Assembly: GCA_002746115.1 (NCBI GenBank)
Contig: NVXL01000007.1
Coordinates: 1-64,000 of the forward strand
Length of the DNA: 64,000 nt
From: Alteromonadaceae bacterium
Lineage (GTDB): Bacteria; Pseudomonadota; Gammaproteobacteria; Pseudomonadales; Cellvibrionaceae
Direction: 5' to 3'
Made by a program: the position numbers and the translations under genes. Under the pieces are notes generated by a model. That model worked only from the letters and a program-made list of their open reading frames with translations. It was not told the origin of the DNA and did no database searches. The number at the start of each line of letters is the position of its first letter. The stretch's first letter is position 1. Positions 7,749 to 44,229 of the stretch are shown here, one piece after another.

Positions 7749-9932
7749 TTGACAGAGCAAACCAGAATACGATTTAGCTTAAGAAAAAAACTCTTTACCC
7801 TAGTGTTGATCGGCTTTACGACCATGATTGTCGCCACCTCGTGGCGTATTGGTCAGCAAGCCGATACGGTGGCCGATACAGCCCGTGGGAAGTCGCTCAG
7901 CCAATCTAGCCTAGCAATCAATACTAAAATCGACAGTCGTTTCGCCTCCGTAAAAGAGGTTGCCACAGGCATCGCTAAAGATAGTCGAGTATTACCCTTA
8001 GTCTTTGATGCTGAATCGCTGACCTTGCAGGATCTTAGTCTTGAATTTCAACGGATTATGGCTTTTGATATCTTATTTTTTACCGATGCCGAAGGGACTG
8101 TTTTAGCGCGCTCGGATAGGCCTGAGGCGATTGGACGCAACATGTCTGGCCGCAGCTCTCTTTTTGACGTCGCGTTAGAAGGCGAGGTCGCGCGCGGGAT
8201 TATTGTTAGCAAAGGTAAATTATTACAAACGGTGGTTGTCCCTATTTTTGATAATGTTGTATCTGATTTGGTTCGCGGAACAGTGGCACTGTCTTATGCA
8301 ATATCAGGTGATTTAGCGAAAGAGATCCAGGCGCTTACTGCCAGTGATATCGGTTTGTTTGTCTTCACTCGTGATAAGTCTCGTGTGATCGATGGTGTGA
8401 AAAGTAGTTTTAATACGCGTGCGGATCTTACTTCTTCGCTAGAGAGTTATTTCCGTCAAACGCCGTCGGCGTGGCGGATGATTGAAAAAGCTGATCAGGA
8501 CGCAAGCGACCTAACGGTGAATTTGAATGGCGAGGATTATTTTGCAGCAGTGCATCGTCTGGTGAATAGCGATGGTAATAGTATGGGTTTTGTGATGGCA
8601 CTGCGTTCGCGTAGTGAGCTATTAAAACCATTTTTGGATATTCAGCGCTCAGTGATTGTGATTGGTTTTCTCTGCCTGATTGGTGCATCTGTTTTCGCTT
8701 GGCTTTTTTCTACTAGTATTAGTCGCCCTATTATTCGCTTGGTCTCGGTTGCGCGAGCCATCCAAGATGGCGACTATCCTGAAAAAAAGGCTTTATCGGT
8801 GGCTAACGATGAGGTGGGCGTACTTCGGAATGCGATTATCTCGATGGGGAATACACTTCGAGAAAAGGCGGAGCTTGAAAGCTATCTCGCCCAATTAGCG
8901 GATGAGATTGATATCTCAGAGTCTATTTCTCAAGCCGCTGCAGATGCGACATTTGATCCTGTAGGGGGAGATAACACGTTTATGCTGCCTGAGAGTGACG
9001 AGTCGCCTCAGTTATCCTCCAAATCAGGCGCAACTCAGTTTGATGGTACTGACGCTACGGTCACGCTTGCTCATACCGTGTCGCTTGATGTGGGGCGTGC
9101 GATTGTTGCGGTGGATGCTGTTGTTGATGAGCGATATAAAATTATTCGCAGCGTTGGCTCGGGCGCGATGGGCGAGGTTTATTTGGCTCATGATTTGGAG
9201 TTAGATGAAAAAGTCGCTATTAAAATGATGGCCAAGTTACTGTTTAGTCAGCAGGAAAGCCTTAATGTTAAGGAGGAGATTCGTCTCGCGCGGAGAATCA
9301 CTCATCGTAATATCTTACGAACCTTTGATTTTGGTAGCTGGAATGAATATTACTATATCACTATGGAGTATATGCCGGGGCACGACTTAGGCCAGCTCCT
9401 TAAAAGCAAAGGTGCTTTTGATACACAGATCGGTTTATTGATGGCCAAGCAAATTTGCTCCGCCATACATGCCGCACATGAGCAAGGCATTATTCACCGA
9501 GATCTAAAGCCTGCGAATATGATGATTAACCGCCAGGGTATTCTTAAAATTATGGATTTTGGTTTGGCGATGAAAGTGGTAAAAAATGCGAGGGATGAAG
9601 CTGATAATACTAACACTAGTGGCGTGATTGCCGGTACACCTAAATACATGGCGCCGGAGCAATTCTTTGCTTGGACTTTGGATGAGCGTACCGATATTTA
9701 TGCGATAGGGGTTATTTTACATACGATATTTTCAGGAGAGCCGCCGTTTAACTTTAACGATATTAAGGTCTTGGCTGATCATCACTTGAGTCATGCCCCA
9801 CCAGAAATCGAAGGTAAAAGCGGGGCTTTTCCTCCTAACTTACAAAATATCATTCGGGTGGCGATGGCGAAAAAACCGGAAGATCGTTACCAAAGCGCTC
9901 GCAGCTTACTGGATGATTTGAACGCGCTTTAA
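7749..9932 (+). CDS. membrane sensor Ser/Thr protein kinase (sensor + HAMP + kinase)
   Basis: A 727-residue protein with inverted architecture compared with most bacterial eukaryotic-like kinases. TM1 lies near 15-35, a periplasmic Cache-like sensor spans about 40-295, TM2 is SVIVIGFLCLIGASVFAW, a HAMP-like segment covers about 320-375, an Asp/Ser-rich linker follows, and a complete kinase domain occupies about 462-727. Kinase motifs: GSGAMGEVYLAHD (glycine loop), VAIKMM (Lys), HRDLKPANMM (catalytic loop), DFGLA and GTPKYMAPEQ. The start is TTG at 7749: GAGGTGA lies 6 bases upstream, and the only nearby ATG (7744) is out of frame and stops after two codons. It should phosphorylate cytoplasmic proteins in response to a periplasmic or redox signal. 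The adjacent cupredoxin lipoprotein is a candidate signal partner (inference). Confidence 0.85.
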   Translation: MTEQTRIRFSLRKKLFTLVLIGFTTMIVATSWRIGQQADTVADTARGKSLSQSSLAINTKIDSRFASVKEVATGIAKDSRVLPLVFDAESLTLQDLSLEFQRIMAFDILFFTDAEGTVLARSDRPEAIGRNMSGRSSLFDVALEGEVARGIIVSKGKLLQTVVVPIFDNVVSDLVRGTVALSYAISGDLAKEIQALTASDIGLFVFTRDKSRVIDGVKSSFNTRADLTSSLESYFRQTPSAWRMIEKADQDASDLTVNLNGEDYFAAVHRLVNSDGNSMGFVMALRSRSELLKPFLDIQRSVIVIGFLCLIGASVFAWLFSTSISRPIIRLVSVARAIQDGDYPEKKALSVANDEVGVLRNAIISMGNTLREKAELESYLAQLADEIDISESISQAAADATFDPVGGDNTFMLPESDESPQLSSKSGATQFDGTDATVTLAHTVSLDVGRAIVAVDAVVDERYKIIRSVGSGAMGEVYLAHDLELDEKVAIKMMAKLLFSQQESLNVKEEIRLARRITHRNILRTFDFGSWNEYYYITMEYMPGHDLGQLLKSKGAFDTQIGLLMAKQICSAIHAAHEQGIIHRDLKPANMMINRQGILKIMDFGLAMKVVKNARDEADNTNTSGVIAGTPKYMAPEQFFAWTLDERTDIYAIGVILHTIFSGEPPFNFNDIKVLADHHLSHAPPEIEGKSGAFPPNLQNIIRVAMAKKPEDRYQSARSLLDDLNAL

Positions 9933-11106: not shown

Positions 11107-11605
11107 AAAGTAGACCCTCTCCCTAAGATGCTGATTGTGTTGAGATTCCGAATTAATTAACTAAACAACCAATAATAAGACCGTACAGCTATAATAAAGT
11201 TTTTTTTGATAAAGTTCTTATATTTTAGCTGTTTATACTTTTTTCCGCTCAGAGTTGATCTTTTTTTGTGCAGCTTGTTGCGCTTTTCCGGCATCTATAA
11301 ATTCATTGTGGTCTCTATGCGACCTAAAGGTCAAGTTTGGGAAGGCAATTAGTCTTAAAAGTGCGTAAGCCCTATTTTAATCGAATGGCACTGGGTACTT
11401 TAGTAATATACATGTTTAATGTAAATAACTGTTAGTTAGCATAGCGAGTACCTCTGGAGGATTGTTATTTTCCACTTAGTTTATGGTGGATATTTGGTCA
11501 TGGATACTAGAAGATATTTATCTATATTTGAATGTGGCTGGCGGGTGTTAACTGTGCGGCTTGCTCTTGTCAGAATCACTGATTACACTGCCGCCTCACA
11601 AAAAT
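11107..11605. other. non-coding gap between the TPR gene and the SMP-30 gene
   Basis: About 500 AT-rich bases between divergent genes. I see no RNA gene, convincing operator or conserved coding frame; the longest ATG frame (from 11500, 46 codons) runs out of frame into the SMP-30 start. The stretch presumably holds both promoters, but no sequence matches a consensus well enough to name. Confidence 0.5.
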
Positions 11606-11626
11606 ATGAATTTGAGCACAAATACT

Positions 11627-12496
11627 ATGAACACAGTTGAGCTTGCTTTGGATGTTAAGGCCCGTTTGGGGGAGTGTCCTCGTTGGGATGAACAAAGCCA
11701 ATGTTTGTATTGGATCGATATTAATGCTTTCCAATTGCATCGTTTTGATCCCGCGAGTGGTAAAAACGATACGTTGACTTTTGGTGAAGAGATTGGTTGT
11801 TTCAGCTTGCGTGCTGACTCCGGGTTTGTATTGGCCATGCGTAGCGGATTCTTCTTAATCGATGGTTGGGACACAGATTTAAAGCCAATCTGTGACCCTG
11901 AAGCGGGCTTGGACAAAAATCGCTTTAATGATGGCCGATGTGATGCGCGTGGACGCTTTGTTGCCGGTTCTTATTACCCACCGAAAGACCATGATGGCGC
12001 TAACTTGTGGAGTTTAGATCAGACGCTTGAGGCTAAGCAGTTGGAAAAAGGTCTGCTGACATCGAATGGTGCTGCGTTTAGCCCTGACAATCGGTTTTTT
12101 TACCTATCGGATACGCCTAAGCACGTGATCTATCGTTATGACTATGACCTTGAGTTAGGTGCTATTAGTAACCGCCAGGTGTTTCACCAGTTTCCGAAGG
12201 GAAAGGGGCGTCCCGATGGCGCCGCAGTTGATGAGGAGGGCTTTTACTGGACGGCTCTATTTGAGGGTGGCCGTATTGCGCGCTTAAGCCCTGAGGGGGA
12301 GATTGTTCAGGAGATTACTGTTCCAGCTAAGTGCCCGACGATGGTGGCTTTTGGTGGCGAAGAGTTAAAAACCTTGTTTATCACTACGGTGGGGGATCGT
12401 CCAGAGGAAGAGTTGAAGGTTTATCCAAACTCTGGTGCGATTTTCAAGATCGATGTTGATGTCGCAGGTTTGGTTGAGCATCGCTTCGCGAAGTAG
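11627..12496 (+). CDS. SMP-30/gluconolactonase/LRE-family lactonase
   Basis: A cytoplasmic six-bladed propeller hydrolase of the regucalcin/gluconolactonase family (about 289 residues). Metal and active-site positions are visible: Glu in RLGECPRWDE, Asn in LTSNGAAFSPDN and Asp in RPDGAAVDEEG. Family members open sugar lactones such as glucono-, xylono- or arabinonolactone in oxidative sugar catabolism. The frame extends upstream to a TTG (11561) and an ATG (11606), but homologues start close to the segment VELALDVKARLGECP, so I prefer the ATG at 11627; none has a strong ribosome site. No sugar dehydrogenase or transporter lies next to it, so the substrate is open. Confidence 0.85.
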   Translation: MNTVELALDVKARLGECPRWDEQSQCLYWIDINAFQLHRFDPASGKNDTLTFGEEIGCFSLRADSGFVLAMRSGFFLIDGWDTDLKPICDPEAGLDKNRFNDGRCDARGRFVAGSYYPPKDHDGANLWSLDQTLEAKQLEKGLLTSNGAAFSPDNRFFYLSDTPKHVIYRYDYDLELGAISNRQVFHQFPKGKGRPDGAAVDEEGFYWTALFEGGRIARLSPEGEIVQEITVPAKCPTMVAFGGEELKTLFITTVGDRPEEELKVYPNSGAIFKIDVDVAGLVEHRFAK

Positions 12497-12554: not shown

Positions 12555-13007
12555 TTAACGCTCTTGCATTGCTTCATACATCTGCTCGGCGAGGCCTTCT
12601 ATCTCGGCGAGTAGGTAGTGTTTAAATTTGGATGAGTAGGGTTGTTTTGTGCATGCTTTCAGCATGCAGCTTAGCCATGTGTCTTTCTCCTCCATAGTCA
12701 TGGAGTGGATAATGTTCATGGCGGGGATGCGCAGGTCATAGATTGAGCGATTATACTTGCTGGGGCCACCGAGCCAACCAGATAAAAACCGATTAAGTCG
12801 GCGCTTACTTTTAGCGCGGTCTTCCGATGTTGTTGATTGTAGAAGGATATTATCTTCAGGCAAGGCCTCAATGAGTGCAAAAAAGGTATTGATCCAGCGA
12901 GCGATGCCTTCCACGCCTCCAGCGGCTTGGAAGGAGGTGTCTTCAAAGCCGTAAGGCATTATGTCGCGAATTCTCAGTGTATCGGCATTCTTGCTAATTT
13001 TACTCAT
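12555..13007 (-). CDS. group II truncated-haemoglobin-like protein lacking the proximal His
   Basis: About 150 residues with the clear family pattern of group II truncated globins: DTSFQAAGGVEGIARWI, RLNRFLSGWLGGPSKY, and EEKDTWLSCMLKAC with the conserved G8 Trp. Where family members have the F8 haem ligand (pattern IPxxHxxLxIxxxExDxW), this protein reads IPAMNIIHSMTMEEKDTW, so the ligand position is Asn and the nearest His is three residues later. The B10 Tyr position (usually DFY) is Phe in NTFF. Normal haem binding is therefore doubtful. I use the ATG at 13007; a TTG at 13013 is also possible. It converges on the SMP-30 gene and lies just upstream of the formaldehyde operon on the same strand. 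Confidence 0.75.
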   Translation of the reverse strand: MSKISKNADTLRIRDIMPYGFEDTSFQAAGGVEGIARWINTFFALIEALPEDNILLQSTTSEDRAKSKRRLNRFLSGWLGGPSKYNRSIYDLRIPAMNIIHSMTMEEKDTWLSCMLKACTKQPYSSKFKHYLLAEIEGLAEQMYEAMQER

Positions 13008-13072
13008 CTCCAAGGTTGTTGGAAAATATACACGGTTTCTGCGAATATATTTTTGTTATTAGTTTTTATCTA

Positions 13073-13923
13073 TTACTTACTTTCACTGAGGTGTTGCGCG
13101 TGAAAACGCATGTGCTGTTCGATAAAGCTCGCGATAAAGTAATAGCTGTGGTCATAGCCTGTGCACAACTGCGCTTCTAATGTGTAGTCATTTTTCTGAG
13201 CGCTGGCAACCAAGGCATCAAAATTTAGCTGTTCTTGAAGAAAATTATCTGCACTACCTTGGCTGACAAGCAGAGGTGGTGGGTTGTCGGTATTAGCGAG
13301 TAACTCGCAACTATCGTAGCTTAGCCAATCGGCGCGATCTTCGCCCAAGTATTGGCTAAATGCTTTTTCCCCCCAGGGGCATTGGCTTGGGTTGGCGATG
13401 GGGGCAAAAGCTGAAGCGCTAGCGTATTCGCGTGGGTTTTTTAAGGCGCACACTAAGGCTCCGTGGCCGCCCATGGAGTGACCGCTGATGGATTTCTTTG
13501 TACTGACCTCAAAATGTTGCTCGATGAGCTTAGGTAGCTCTTGAGAGACGTAGCTGAACATTTGATAATTCGTAGCCCAAGGCGACTCTGTGGCATTGAC
13601 GTAAAACCCGGCGCCGAGGCCAAAATCCCAAGCGTGCTCAGGGTCGTCAGGTACGTGAACGCCGCGCGGTGATGTATCTGGTGTTACCAGTACAATACCT
13701 AGCTCTGCCGCAATGCGTTGGGCGCCTGCTTTTTGCATAAAGTTTTCGTCGTTACAGGTCAGGCCTGAAAGCCAATAAAGTACCGGTAGCGGCCTCTGTG
13801 TTTTTGGCAAGAAAATCGAAAACGTCATTCCGCAATCATTGCATGCGGATGCATGTGTATAGCGCTCTAAACTACCGCCAAAGCATTGGGTTTGTGCAAT
13901 GCGGTCAATACTTGTGTCGCCCA

Positions 13924-13924
<1 letters not shown>
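13073..13924 (-). CDS. fghA: S-formylglutathione hydrolase
   Basis: A 283-residue esterase-D family alpha/beta hydrolase that splits S-formylglutathione into glutathione and formate, the second step of glutathione-dependent formaldehyde detoxification. The nucleophile elbow is SGHSMGGHGAL; PVLYWLSGLTCNDENF and the C-terminal GYDHSYYFIASF (catalytic His) are also family signatures. Length is normal (about 280). Its ATG overlaps the stop codon of the dehydrogenase gene by one base (TAATG), so the two are translationally coupled in one operon. E. coli names frmB and yeiG denote the same activity. Confidence 0.95.
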
Positions 13925-15048
<1,124 letters not shown>

Positions 15049-37273: not shown

Positions 37274-38758
37274 TTACGGGCTTTTCTTGGTTTCGCTAGG
37301 GCTATCGTCTTGTTCTGCTTCTTGTTCTTGCGCGGCCTCTAAAGCTGCTTGCTTAAGGGCTGCTTCTTTAGCCGCTTTAGCGTCTAGACGCTTTTTCTCT
37401 TGTCGGATAAACAGATCAAGCCCCTTAAGTAAGGTGATAGCTTCGTATAGCTGGCTATCGGTATCCGCAATAGATGCTGTTTTTTTATCGTCATTGGTGC
37501 TAGAGCTGTTTTTATTGTTTGATTTGGACTTGGATTTCTTTTTCTTCTTCTTCTTTTTCTTTTTCGTGTTGTTCCCGTTCGCAAGGTGGCCGCTGAGGTT
37601 GGATTCCTTGATTCGACTGTGTTGCTCTATTGGCGAAACTTTGAATGGCTCAACTTCGATATCAGGGGTAATGCCTTCGGCTTGAATTGATCGCCCTTGA
37701 GGCGTGTAATACAAGGCCGTAGTGATTTTAATGGCTCGGTCGTTAGTGATGGGGATAACAGATTGCACCGAGCCTTTACCAAAGCTGCGAGTGCCGATAA
37801 TAATGGCTCGACCTTGATCTTGAAGTGCTCCCGCGACAATTTCTGAGGCTGAGGCTGAGCCTCCGTTAATCAATACAACTATGGGTAAGCCGTCGGTGAT
37901 ATCACCGGGGTTGGCTTCGTATTGGACGTTAGAGTCTTTGAGCCGCCCCTCGGTGTAAACAATTAGGCCATCTTCAATGAATTGATCTGCTACCTCGACT
38001 GAGGCTTGCAGGACGCCGCCGGGGTTGTTGCGCAGATCCAATACTAAGCCTTTAATTTCTGCTGATTCGCTCTTCAACTTCTCAAAGGCTTTGGCAACAT
38101 CTTGGCCTGTATGCACTTGGAATTGGGCAATGCGAATGTAGGCAAAATGGCCTTCTTTCATGCTGGCTTTAACGCTGCGGACTTTGACGGTATCGCGCAC
38201 TAATGTTAAGTCAAAAGGTTGAGTAAGCCCCTTTCTTAATAGGGTAATCGTAATTTCGCTGCCTTTGGGGCCGCGCATTTTCTCAACGGCGTCTTTAAGG
38301 GATAAGCCTTTCACTGTGACATCGTTAATTTTGATAATGAGGTCGCCAGCTTGAACGCCAGCAGCGGCAGCCGGAGTATCGTCAATTGGGGAGATGACTT
38401 TAACGTAACCATCTTCAATACCGACTTCAATGCCTAGCCCACCGAATTCGCCGGTGGTGTGTACTTGCAGCTCGTCGAACGAGCTAGCGTCAAGATAGGT
38501 TGAGTGTGGGTCTAGCTCGTTGAGCATGCCGCGAATGGCGTATTCAAGCAGTGTTCTATCGTCTATTTCTCGGACGTAGGCGTTACGAATATGGTCGTAA
38601 GCTTTGGTGAAAACACGTAAATCTTCGAGTGGAAGCACGCTAATCTTGGTGTGAACGTCACTATCGTTGTCTTGTGAGTCTTGTCCATGACTGACGGCGC
38701 TAAGTAGTGTGCTTAGCGTTGTGATGATCAATAATCCGAGTTTAAGTGGCGATTTCAT
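37274..38758 (-). CDS. ctpA: C-terminal processing peptidase, S41 family
   Basis: A 494-residue periplasmic S41 protease: signal peptide (LGLLIITTLSTLLSAVSHG), PDZ domain (about 80-165, with GLGIEVGIEDGYVKVISPID), and the catalytic core with Ser in GGSASASEIVAGAL and Lys in RSFGKGSVQ. It degrades or matures envelope proteins, probably peptidoglycan hydrolases. The ATG at 38758 is chosen because AAGGTG lies 8 bases upstream and it gives a normal signal peptide; the frame opens at 38806. Near the C-terminus a run of ten Lys followed by Ser/Lys/Asn replaces an ordinary linker. It sits between envC and the deacetylase gene. Confidence 0.94.
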   Translation of the reverse strand: MKSPLKLGLLIITTLSTLLSAVSHGQDSQDNDSDVHTKISVLPLEDLRVFTKAYDHIRNAYVREIDDRTLLEYAIRGMLNELDPHSTYLDASSFDELQVHTTGEFGGLGIEVGIEDGYVKVISPIDDTPAAAAGVQAGDLIIKINDVTVKGLSLKDAVEKMRGPKGSEITITLLRKGLTQPFDLTLVRDTVKVRSVKASMKEGHFAYIRIAQFQVHTGQDVAKAFEKLKSESAEIKGLVLDLRNNPGGVLQASVEVADQFIEDGLIVYTEGRLKDSNVQYEANPGDITDGLPIVVLINGGSASASEIVAGALQDQGRAIIIGTRSFGKGSVQSVIPITNDRAIKITTALYYTPQGRSIQAEGITPDIEVEPFKVSPIEQHSRIKESNLSGHLANGNNTKKKKKKKKKKSKSKSNNKNSSSTNDDKKTASIADTDSQLYEAITLLKGLDLFIRQEKKRLDAKAAKEAALKQAALEAAQEQEAEQDDSPSETKKSP

Positions 38759-38798
38759 CGCTGCGGTCACCTTGATACCTCTCCCTGTGCAGGGGTAG

Positions 38799-38830
38799 TT
38801 ATACATCTATTGTGTTATACATTTATGTGG
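38799..38830. repeat. 16-bp imperfect tandem duplication upstream of ctpA
   Basis: TTATACATCTATTGTG (38799-38814) is followed by TTATACATTTATGTGG (38815-38830), with about three differences. It lies 41 bases upstream of the ctpA ATG, in the 289-base spacer to envC. No other structure stands out in that spacer. Confidence 0.6.
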
Positions 38831-43545: not shown

Positions 43546-44229
43546 ATGAAAAGAGTTCTTTCCATCATGGCCTGCGGCGCTGTGATATTTATGACACAAG
43601 CTGTTGCGATACCGAATCAAGTGTTAGCGGCAGAGCGTGAGCATCAATCGACAAATGAAGGGCGGCGTGAGCGTCATACCGATCGCCAAAACCGTCAAAA
43701 TGGTCGTAAGGATCAGGCGACTCATCAGCGGGAGAGTAATCACCAAGAACGCAGGCGTCAAGTGTCCAAGCCTGCAGGGCGTAAACATGGTGAGCATGCT
43801 GGCCGCCATCATAATCATCAAGATAGATCCCGCCACCATAGCTCTCGTCGGCATGATACGCATAATGACCATCATGGGCGCAATAATCATGATAGGCGTC
43901 ACCATAGCGGCCACAATAGTCACAGCCGTCACAACAGCCATAATCGCCATCATGATCGTCACCACAATAAGCACCGTAAGCACAGAACACACAAGCATCA
44001 CGGCTCGCAGCATCATCTCCGGCGCCACACAAGCAATCATATTTATATCGGTAGTCAAGTGCTACTAGGGGCGGTGATGCATCACGATTATTGTCCTGAT
44101 TACATGCATTATCACGACGATTACGATATTTTTAACTATACGCGGGATAATTATGGGGCGTGCTTTAAAGTGGTGCATGGCCATAATGGCAAGAGGCGCA
44201 TCCAAGTCGCTTACGAATACTGTTATTAG
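43546..44229 (+). CDS. secreted His-rich protein (41 His of 227 residues)
   Basis: Signal peptide (MACGAVIFMTQAVAIPNQVLA) followed by a hydrophilic, repeat-like middle (about 30-165) made almost only of His, Arg, Asn, Ser and Lys, with many HH pairs, and a more ordinary C-terminus (about 166-227) with Tyr, Asp and three Cys (HDYCPDYMHYHDDYD, YGACFKVVHGHNGKR, AYEYCY). The composition suggests metal (Zn, Ni, Cu, Co) binding or a nucleic-acid/acidic-polymer contact in the periplasm or outside the cell. I know no family for it. It stands between secB and the convergent ntrC gene with its own ribosome site. Frames on the other strand are open across the same region only because of this biased composition. 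Confidence 0.75.
   Translation: MKRVLSIMACGAVIFMTQAVAIPNQVLAAEREHQSTNEGRRERHTDRQNRQNGRKDQATHQRESNHQERRRQVSKPAGRKHGEHAGRHHNHQDRSRHHSSRRHDTHNDHHGRNNHDRRHHSGHNSHSRHNSHNRHHDRHHNKHRKHRTHKHHGSQHHLRRHTSNHIYIGSQVLLGAVMHHDYCPDYMHYHDDYDIFNYTRDNYGACFKVVHGHNGKRRIQVAYEYCY

Follow-up and report, generated by a model that had tools for sequence, protein, structure and literature searches.

The gene at positions 12555–13007 on the minus strand of the window (the whole 64,000-nucleotide stretch of DNA that was analysed) encodes a fast-evolving protein that we take to be a descendant of the group II (O-type) truncated haemoglobins, most likely free of haem and acting as a small helical protein, with partnership to its neighbours AdhC and FghA offered as a guess. 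We give this reading as a whole about an even chance. A group II ancestor would have lost the F8 His, the B10 Tyr, the His or Tyr at CD1 and the hydrophobic residue at E4, with the core of the 2/2 globin fold and the G8 Trp being kept.

The open reading frame extends from an ATG at position 13007 (or a TTG at 13013) to a stop at 12555 and encodes 150 amino acids plus the stop codon as a single domain, with no fused signalling output. Its match to the PF01152 Bac_globin profile scored 48.4 bits, exceeding the cut-off of 21. Immediately upstream and co-directional, with 65 nt between it and the globin ATG, is fghA for S-formylglutathione hydrolase (13073–13924, minus strand; TIGR02821, 384 bits relative to a cut-off of 281.7), which is preceded by adhC for S-(hydroxymethyl)glutathione dehydrogenase/class III alcohol dehydrogenase (13924–15036, minus strand; TIGR02818, 694.3 bits relative to a cut-off of 543.95). 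Both models are NCBIfam equivalogs, and these matches confirm the view of the initial annotation that the globin adjoins formaldehyde detoxification genes. A putative adhC-fghA-globin operon would end with the globin; scans for promoters and terminators yielded 6 hits versus 3.1 expected and 4 versus 3.2 expected, or little over chance. A convergent SMP-30/gluconolactonase-like gene (11561–12496, plus strand; PF08450, 275.1 bits) lies downstream. Elsewhere in the window, inspection by eye pointed to a membrane sensor in which a HAMP-like part precedes a eukaryote-like Ser/Thr protein kinase domain (7749–9932, plus strand) and to a protease of the carboxy-terminal processing type with a run of approximately 10 Lys residues and then Lys, Ser, and Asn in the middle of the protein (37274–38806, minus strand). 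A small predicted secreted protein with a very high content of His, Arg, and Asn, possibly a metal binder, is encoded at 43546–44229 (plus strand).

For comparison of residues, 90 loci were aligned from searches of 58, 144, 390, and 369 genomes, with these genome sets overlapping, and 80 named loci from genome_contigs as well as 100 other matches in the 144- and 390-genome sets were added as further rows. Removal of L087 and 13 duplicates left 256 unique rows including the query; L087, which is left out of the counts, shows His at F8 in the 90-locus alignment. Asn98 of the query (codon AAC, 12714–12716; this and all codons below are on the minus strand) occupies the F8 position of the proximal haem ligand, where 254 of the 255 other unique relatives have His and the remaining one, L230, has a gap. 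Asn98 also stands opposite the proximal His when phmmer aligns the query with group II globins of solved structure (1ux8 and others; best solved relatives at E ~1e-7), and these alignments contain no gap between the GWLGGP motif and the G-helix Trp, a stretch that includes the F region. The replacement of the proximal His by Asn, as claimed initially, is thus borne out, as is the presence of Phe at the B10 Tyr site (Phe43, codon TTT, 12879–12881). The B10 Phe is not unique by itself, since Tyr fills this site in 252 of the 256 rows and Phe does so in three rows in addition to the query. Phe42 is present at B9, and the Phe B9–Tyr B10 pair is absent as a result of the missing Tyr.

These two substitutions belong to a broader set of losses with the haem site at its centre, given that CD1, E4, and B5 are also changed and that 7 of 23 conserved columns are lost. 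CD1, where group II truncated haemoglobins have Phe, Tyr, or His, is occupied by Thr60 (codon ACA, 12828–12830), which aligns with a Phe of 1ux8 and is unique to the query among the 256 unique rows (His in 243, Tyr in 12). At E4, a position numbered backwards from E7, Arg64 (codon CGC, 12816–12818) replaces the usual Leu (219 of 256 rows) and is shared by two other rows, and at B5, which is Leu in 252 of 256 rows, the query alone has Trp. At least 90% of relatives agree in 23 columns; the query conforms in 16 of these and departs in 7, and the next worst rows depart in 4. The enrichment of losses at the haem site was judged by eye, the numbers being too small for a statistical test. Other elements of the family are in place. 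The AAGG sequence at residues 28–31 and GWLGGP at residues 77–82 (12762–12779, minus strand; intact in the alignment) provide both glycine motifs of group II, at the A–B corner and the end of helix E, respectively. Trp111 (codon TGG, 12675–12677) preserves the Trp that group II truncated globins have at G8 (Trp in 255 of 256 rows, with one X), the E11 Leu is kept in all 256 rows including the query, a basic E10 and the F4 Ile, which together with E11 Leu and G8 Trp line the site, are retained, and the W..CM core of the G helix is intact. The protein is homologous to group II, but on the basis of these residues it should be called a descendant that lacks the haem site rather than a member of the group, given that three defining residues (F8, B10, and CD1) fail.

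A family alignment had been proposed to determine whether the Asn defines a clade, and no second member was found in the searched genomes. No other Asn-F8 globin was present among the matches examined from the overlapping sets of 58, 144, 390, and 369 genomes, a census that covers a minority of the class-level matches of the 369-genome set and all but a few rows of the 390-genome set. A search of genome_contigs with the single query sequence gave no match; the same search with a 20-row alignment gave 584 relatives, of which the best 80 were examined and none showed Asn at F8. Neither search of viral_contigs with the query globin gave a match. At best, the query was approximately 39% identical to any relative. 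In L230 (G146:C29:29600-30300), a truncated globin encoded within the query's bacterial family, three residues around F8 are deleted (CLT---KPY, compared with CLTxPHxxY in relatives), which on alignment would make it a second truncated globin without F8 and a separate case of haem-ligand loss.

The best match to the query globin is encoded by Teredinibacter sp. ISS155 (CABFPG010000003.1; L144 4004-4429 and L091 5992-6432), in a gene block that matches that of the query. The identities are 82% for AdhC, 61% for FghA, 39% for the globin, and 76% for the convergent SMP-30 protein, and ORF lists inspected by eye showed that an ABC permease and ATPase pair precedes adhC in both genomes. Given that this syntenic orthologue retains His at F8, Tyr at B10, and Tyr at CD1, the haem-site losses in the query are derived rather than ancestral. 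Linkage of adhC, fghA, and globin as a general feature was rejected: fghA is present in 135 of 144 family genomes, and, as judged by position, only two of the 144, those of the query and Teredinibacter sp. ISS155, have a globin match next to it. None of the other 79 of the best 80 of the 584 loci has an adhC, fghA, or SMP-30 gene within approximately 4 kb, with some of these contigs ending early.

The end branch of the query is very long, measuring 2.27 relative to a median of 0.27 in the larger tree, in which it is exceeded only by those of a distant row (L018, 2.63) and of L087, a misread row, and 3.62 relative to a median of 0.30 in the smaller set. A grouping of the query with the syntenic orthologue was not rejected (p-AU of 0.375), and a grouping with the paralogue from its own genome and L041 fitted more poorly and was also not rejected (p-AU of 0.092). 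The orthology of the two linked globins rests on synteny, the trees being compatible with both placements of the query. Given that the orthologue is itself on a long branch (1.27 relative to a median of 0.30), rapid evolution of the linked globin seems to have been under way before the haem site was lost.

The query genome contains five PF01152 matches, including the query itself. With His at F8 and Tyr at B10, the paralogue at C256 has the canonical group II form, and the other three domains look by eye like group I, with the usual AH(K/R) in the F8 region. The genome also encodes a flavohaemoglobin-type protein (PF00042; 415-residue frame). Given these other globins, loss of haem from the query would still leave the cell with haem globins, and gas chemistry would be covered by them. 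One of the group I type domains (L323; G000:C278:9487-9831) is located near the start of an 814-residue frame, in which it is followed by near-identical repeated PAS-like segments, possibly making up a haem-based sensor. Close to the flavohaemoglobin-type gene (L326; G000:C110), a frame for an Rrf2-type regulator was seen by eye on the same strand, as in known NO-responsive pairs.

A redundant globin might simply be decaying under relaxed constraint toward a pseudogene, with the haem site going first and no new function arising. The five PF01152 matches together with the flavohaemoglobin provide such redundancy, and the long branches of both the query and its orthologue as well as the record number of losses at conserved columns are what decay would produce. 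The state of the gene argues in the other direction. In a simulation of neutral point mutation that started from the orthologue gene and did not count indels, the proportion of frames that remained free of stops was 14.7% at 80% identity, 2.8% at 60%, and 0.6% at the 39% identity observed, whereas the 150-codon frame of the query is intact, as are GWLGGP and the W..CM core. The query and the orthologue differ at 15 of 35 core hydrophobic columns, and the query residue is still hydrophobic at 11 of the 15, compared with 44–46% in neutral simulation; this retention was reached in 1.7–2.7% of neutral runs (P = 0.017–0.027), with the sample for selection being one sequence in one genome. The four core positions that have turned polar (52, 59, 64, and 101) fall in the CD region, at E4, and at F11. 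At the level of sequence, this pattern speaks for a fold that would be under selection and a haem cavity that would have been released from it, and some of the conservative changes in the core may have preceded the haem loss. Decay may also have begun recently. Overall, we regard decay as unlikely, if still deserving of serious weight.

To gain insight into the fold of the query, we obtained AlphaFold2 models without haem from 77 rows, with the orthologue modelled from the same 77 sequences as a control; 4 of the 80 loci, which had stops or duplicated another protein, did not enter the structure alignments. The model of the query had a mean pLDDT of 82.3, with values of 93–96 for core blocks (residues 21–50 and 111–140), 75 for residues 51–60, 80 for residues 81–90, and 53 for residues 91–100, the block that contains F8. 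The orthologue showed a mean pLDDT of 92.1, with 89 for its F8 block (residues 81–90) and 96–97 for its CD blocks. The closest structures to the query model in VIA-align were 5d1v (Z of 14.5, rmsd of 2.2 over 116 residues), 2bmm (14.3), and 4uur (13.8); the top rows, with Z from 14.5 to about 13, were truncated haemoglobins, and the best Foldseek E value was 4.5e-4. The 2/2 globin fold is thus predicted to be kept, and the uncertainty of the model sits where haem would be. The low pLDDT of the F region serves as supporting evidence only, because divergence itself lowers confidence. The suggestion of the initial annotation that the protein may not bind haem is strengthened at the level of prediction, with four haem-site positions rather than two found to be changed and the confidence for the F region below that of the control.

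His101 (codon CAC, 12705–12707), located three residues after F8, is the sole candidate for a substitute ligand in the F region. The site is occupied in other rows by Leu, Phe, Tyr, Trp, Met, Val, or Ile, and by His in the query only. This new His might hold the haem, as might a residue on the opposite face; hydrophobic contacts might also do so, with the iron carrying water or an exogenous base. The outcome would be a different reactivity. Retention of the G8 Trp, E11 Leu, basic E10, and F4 Ile is compatible with such a site, and a published study reports a globin whose proximal and distal sites are swapped, with Lys-His ligation (PMC4476040). Placement of His101 at F8, however, would take both a deletion and an insertion, each of three residues, for which the alignment does not call: it is gapless on both sides of F8, and the spacings from GWLGGP to F8 and from F8 to the G8 Trp equal those of relatives. 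The three-residue shift that had been put forward as a possible refutation of the Asn assignment was therefore rejected, and use of the later His as a ligand, also raised initially, was unsupported. In addition, the E4 Arg and CD1 Thr would point polar groups at the pocket, and the ligand-stabilizing residues at B10 and CD1 are lost. Changed ligation thus appears quite improbable.

In the reading that we favour, that of a haem-free descendant, normal haem binding would have been lost and the protein would work as a small haem-free helical protein. Its role may be that of a binding partner or adaptor for the glutathione-dependent formaldehyde and S-nitrosoglutathione enzymes encoded alongside it, which is a guess. 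The description of the protein as a regulatory or structural globin is a plausible inference. A more specific version, in which the cavity opened by the F8 Asn, E4 Arg, and CD1 Thr would bind a new small molecule (such as a glutathione adduct) or an enzyme surface and the protein would signal to AdhC or FghA as a haem-free regulatory partner of the formaldehyde/S-nitrosoglutathione pathway, we consider decidedly improbable. A sequencing or assembly error in an ordinary truncated haemoglobin is next to negligible as an explanation: CAC to AAC and TAT to TTT are each a change of one base and the assembly is in 297 contigs, but isolated errors cannot account for four separate haem-site changes, including the unique CD1 Thr, in a protein with a best identity of ~39% to its relatives.

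The best matches in both sequence and structure are group II truncated haemoglobins, including Bacillus subtilis YjbI (1ux8) and the proteins of Pseudoalteromonas haloplanktis (4uur) and Chloroflexus aurantiacus (5d1v). The query resembles them in its fold, length, GWLGGP motif, Phe B9, Leu E11, Trp G8, and W..CM G helix, and differs from them in having Asn instead of His at F8, Phe instead of Tyr at B10, Thr at CD1, and Arg at E4. The Teredinibacter sp. ISS155 orthologue, which is 39% identical, occupies the same place in the gene block, and is also fast evolving, differs from the query in its canonical F8, B10, and CD1. Globins without haem are already known, rarely as a stand-alone truncated haemoglobin. 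N-MabR is a non-haem truncated 2/2 globin whose crystal structure lacks the F helix, and the NH2-terminus of RsbR and pXO1-118 are cited as further non-haem globin sensor domains in the same paper (PMC11617747). Like these three proteins, the query has a globin fold without the haem-chelating His, with the absence of haem being predicted from residues only; they are sensor domains or sensor inhibitors, whereas the query has a single domain, the usual length of a truncated haemoglobin, and a sequence close to group II.

Among the titles and abstract openings listed for non-haem and truncated globins and for Teredinibacter globins, there was no truncated haemoglobin that naturally lacks the F8 His, and the literature listed for truncated haemoglobins with formaldehyde or S-nitrosoglutathione (GSNO) enzymes had nothing on such a gene pair. 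As far as the literature searched goes, a single-domain group II truncated haemoglobin with loss of the haem site is new. A large survey of truncated haemoglobins described HisF8 as strictly conserved and discarded sequences without it (PMC4720485), so that proteins like the query would have been filtered out there. Given that the query is a single sequence, the value of the finding is limited. The use of the F8 His as an entry filter, as in at least that one survey, removes haem-free descendants before anyone looks. The location of the gene behind those for formaldehyde and GSNO enzymes makes its role testable, and the query together with its canonical syntenic orthologue, at a known distance, forms a concrete pair in which the order of steps in haem loss from a globin, and any new job taken on by the fold thereafter, could be traced.
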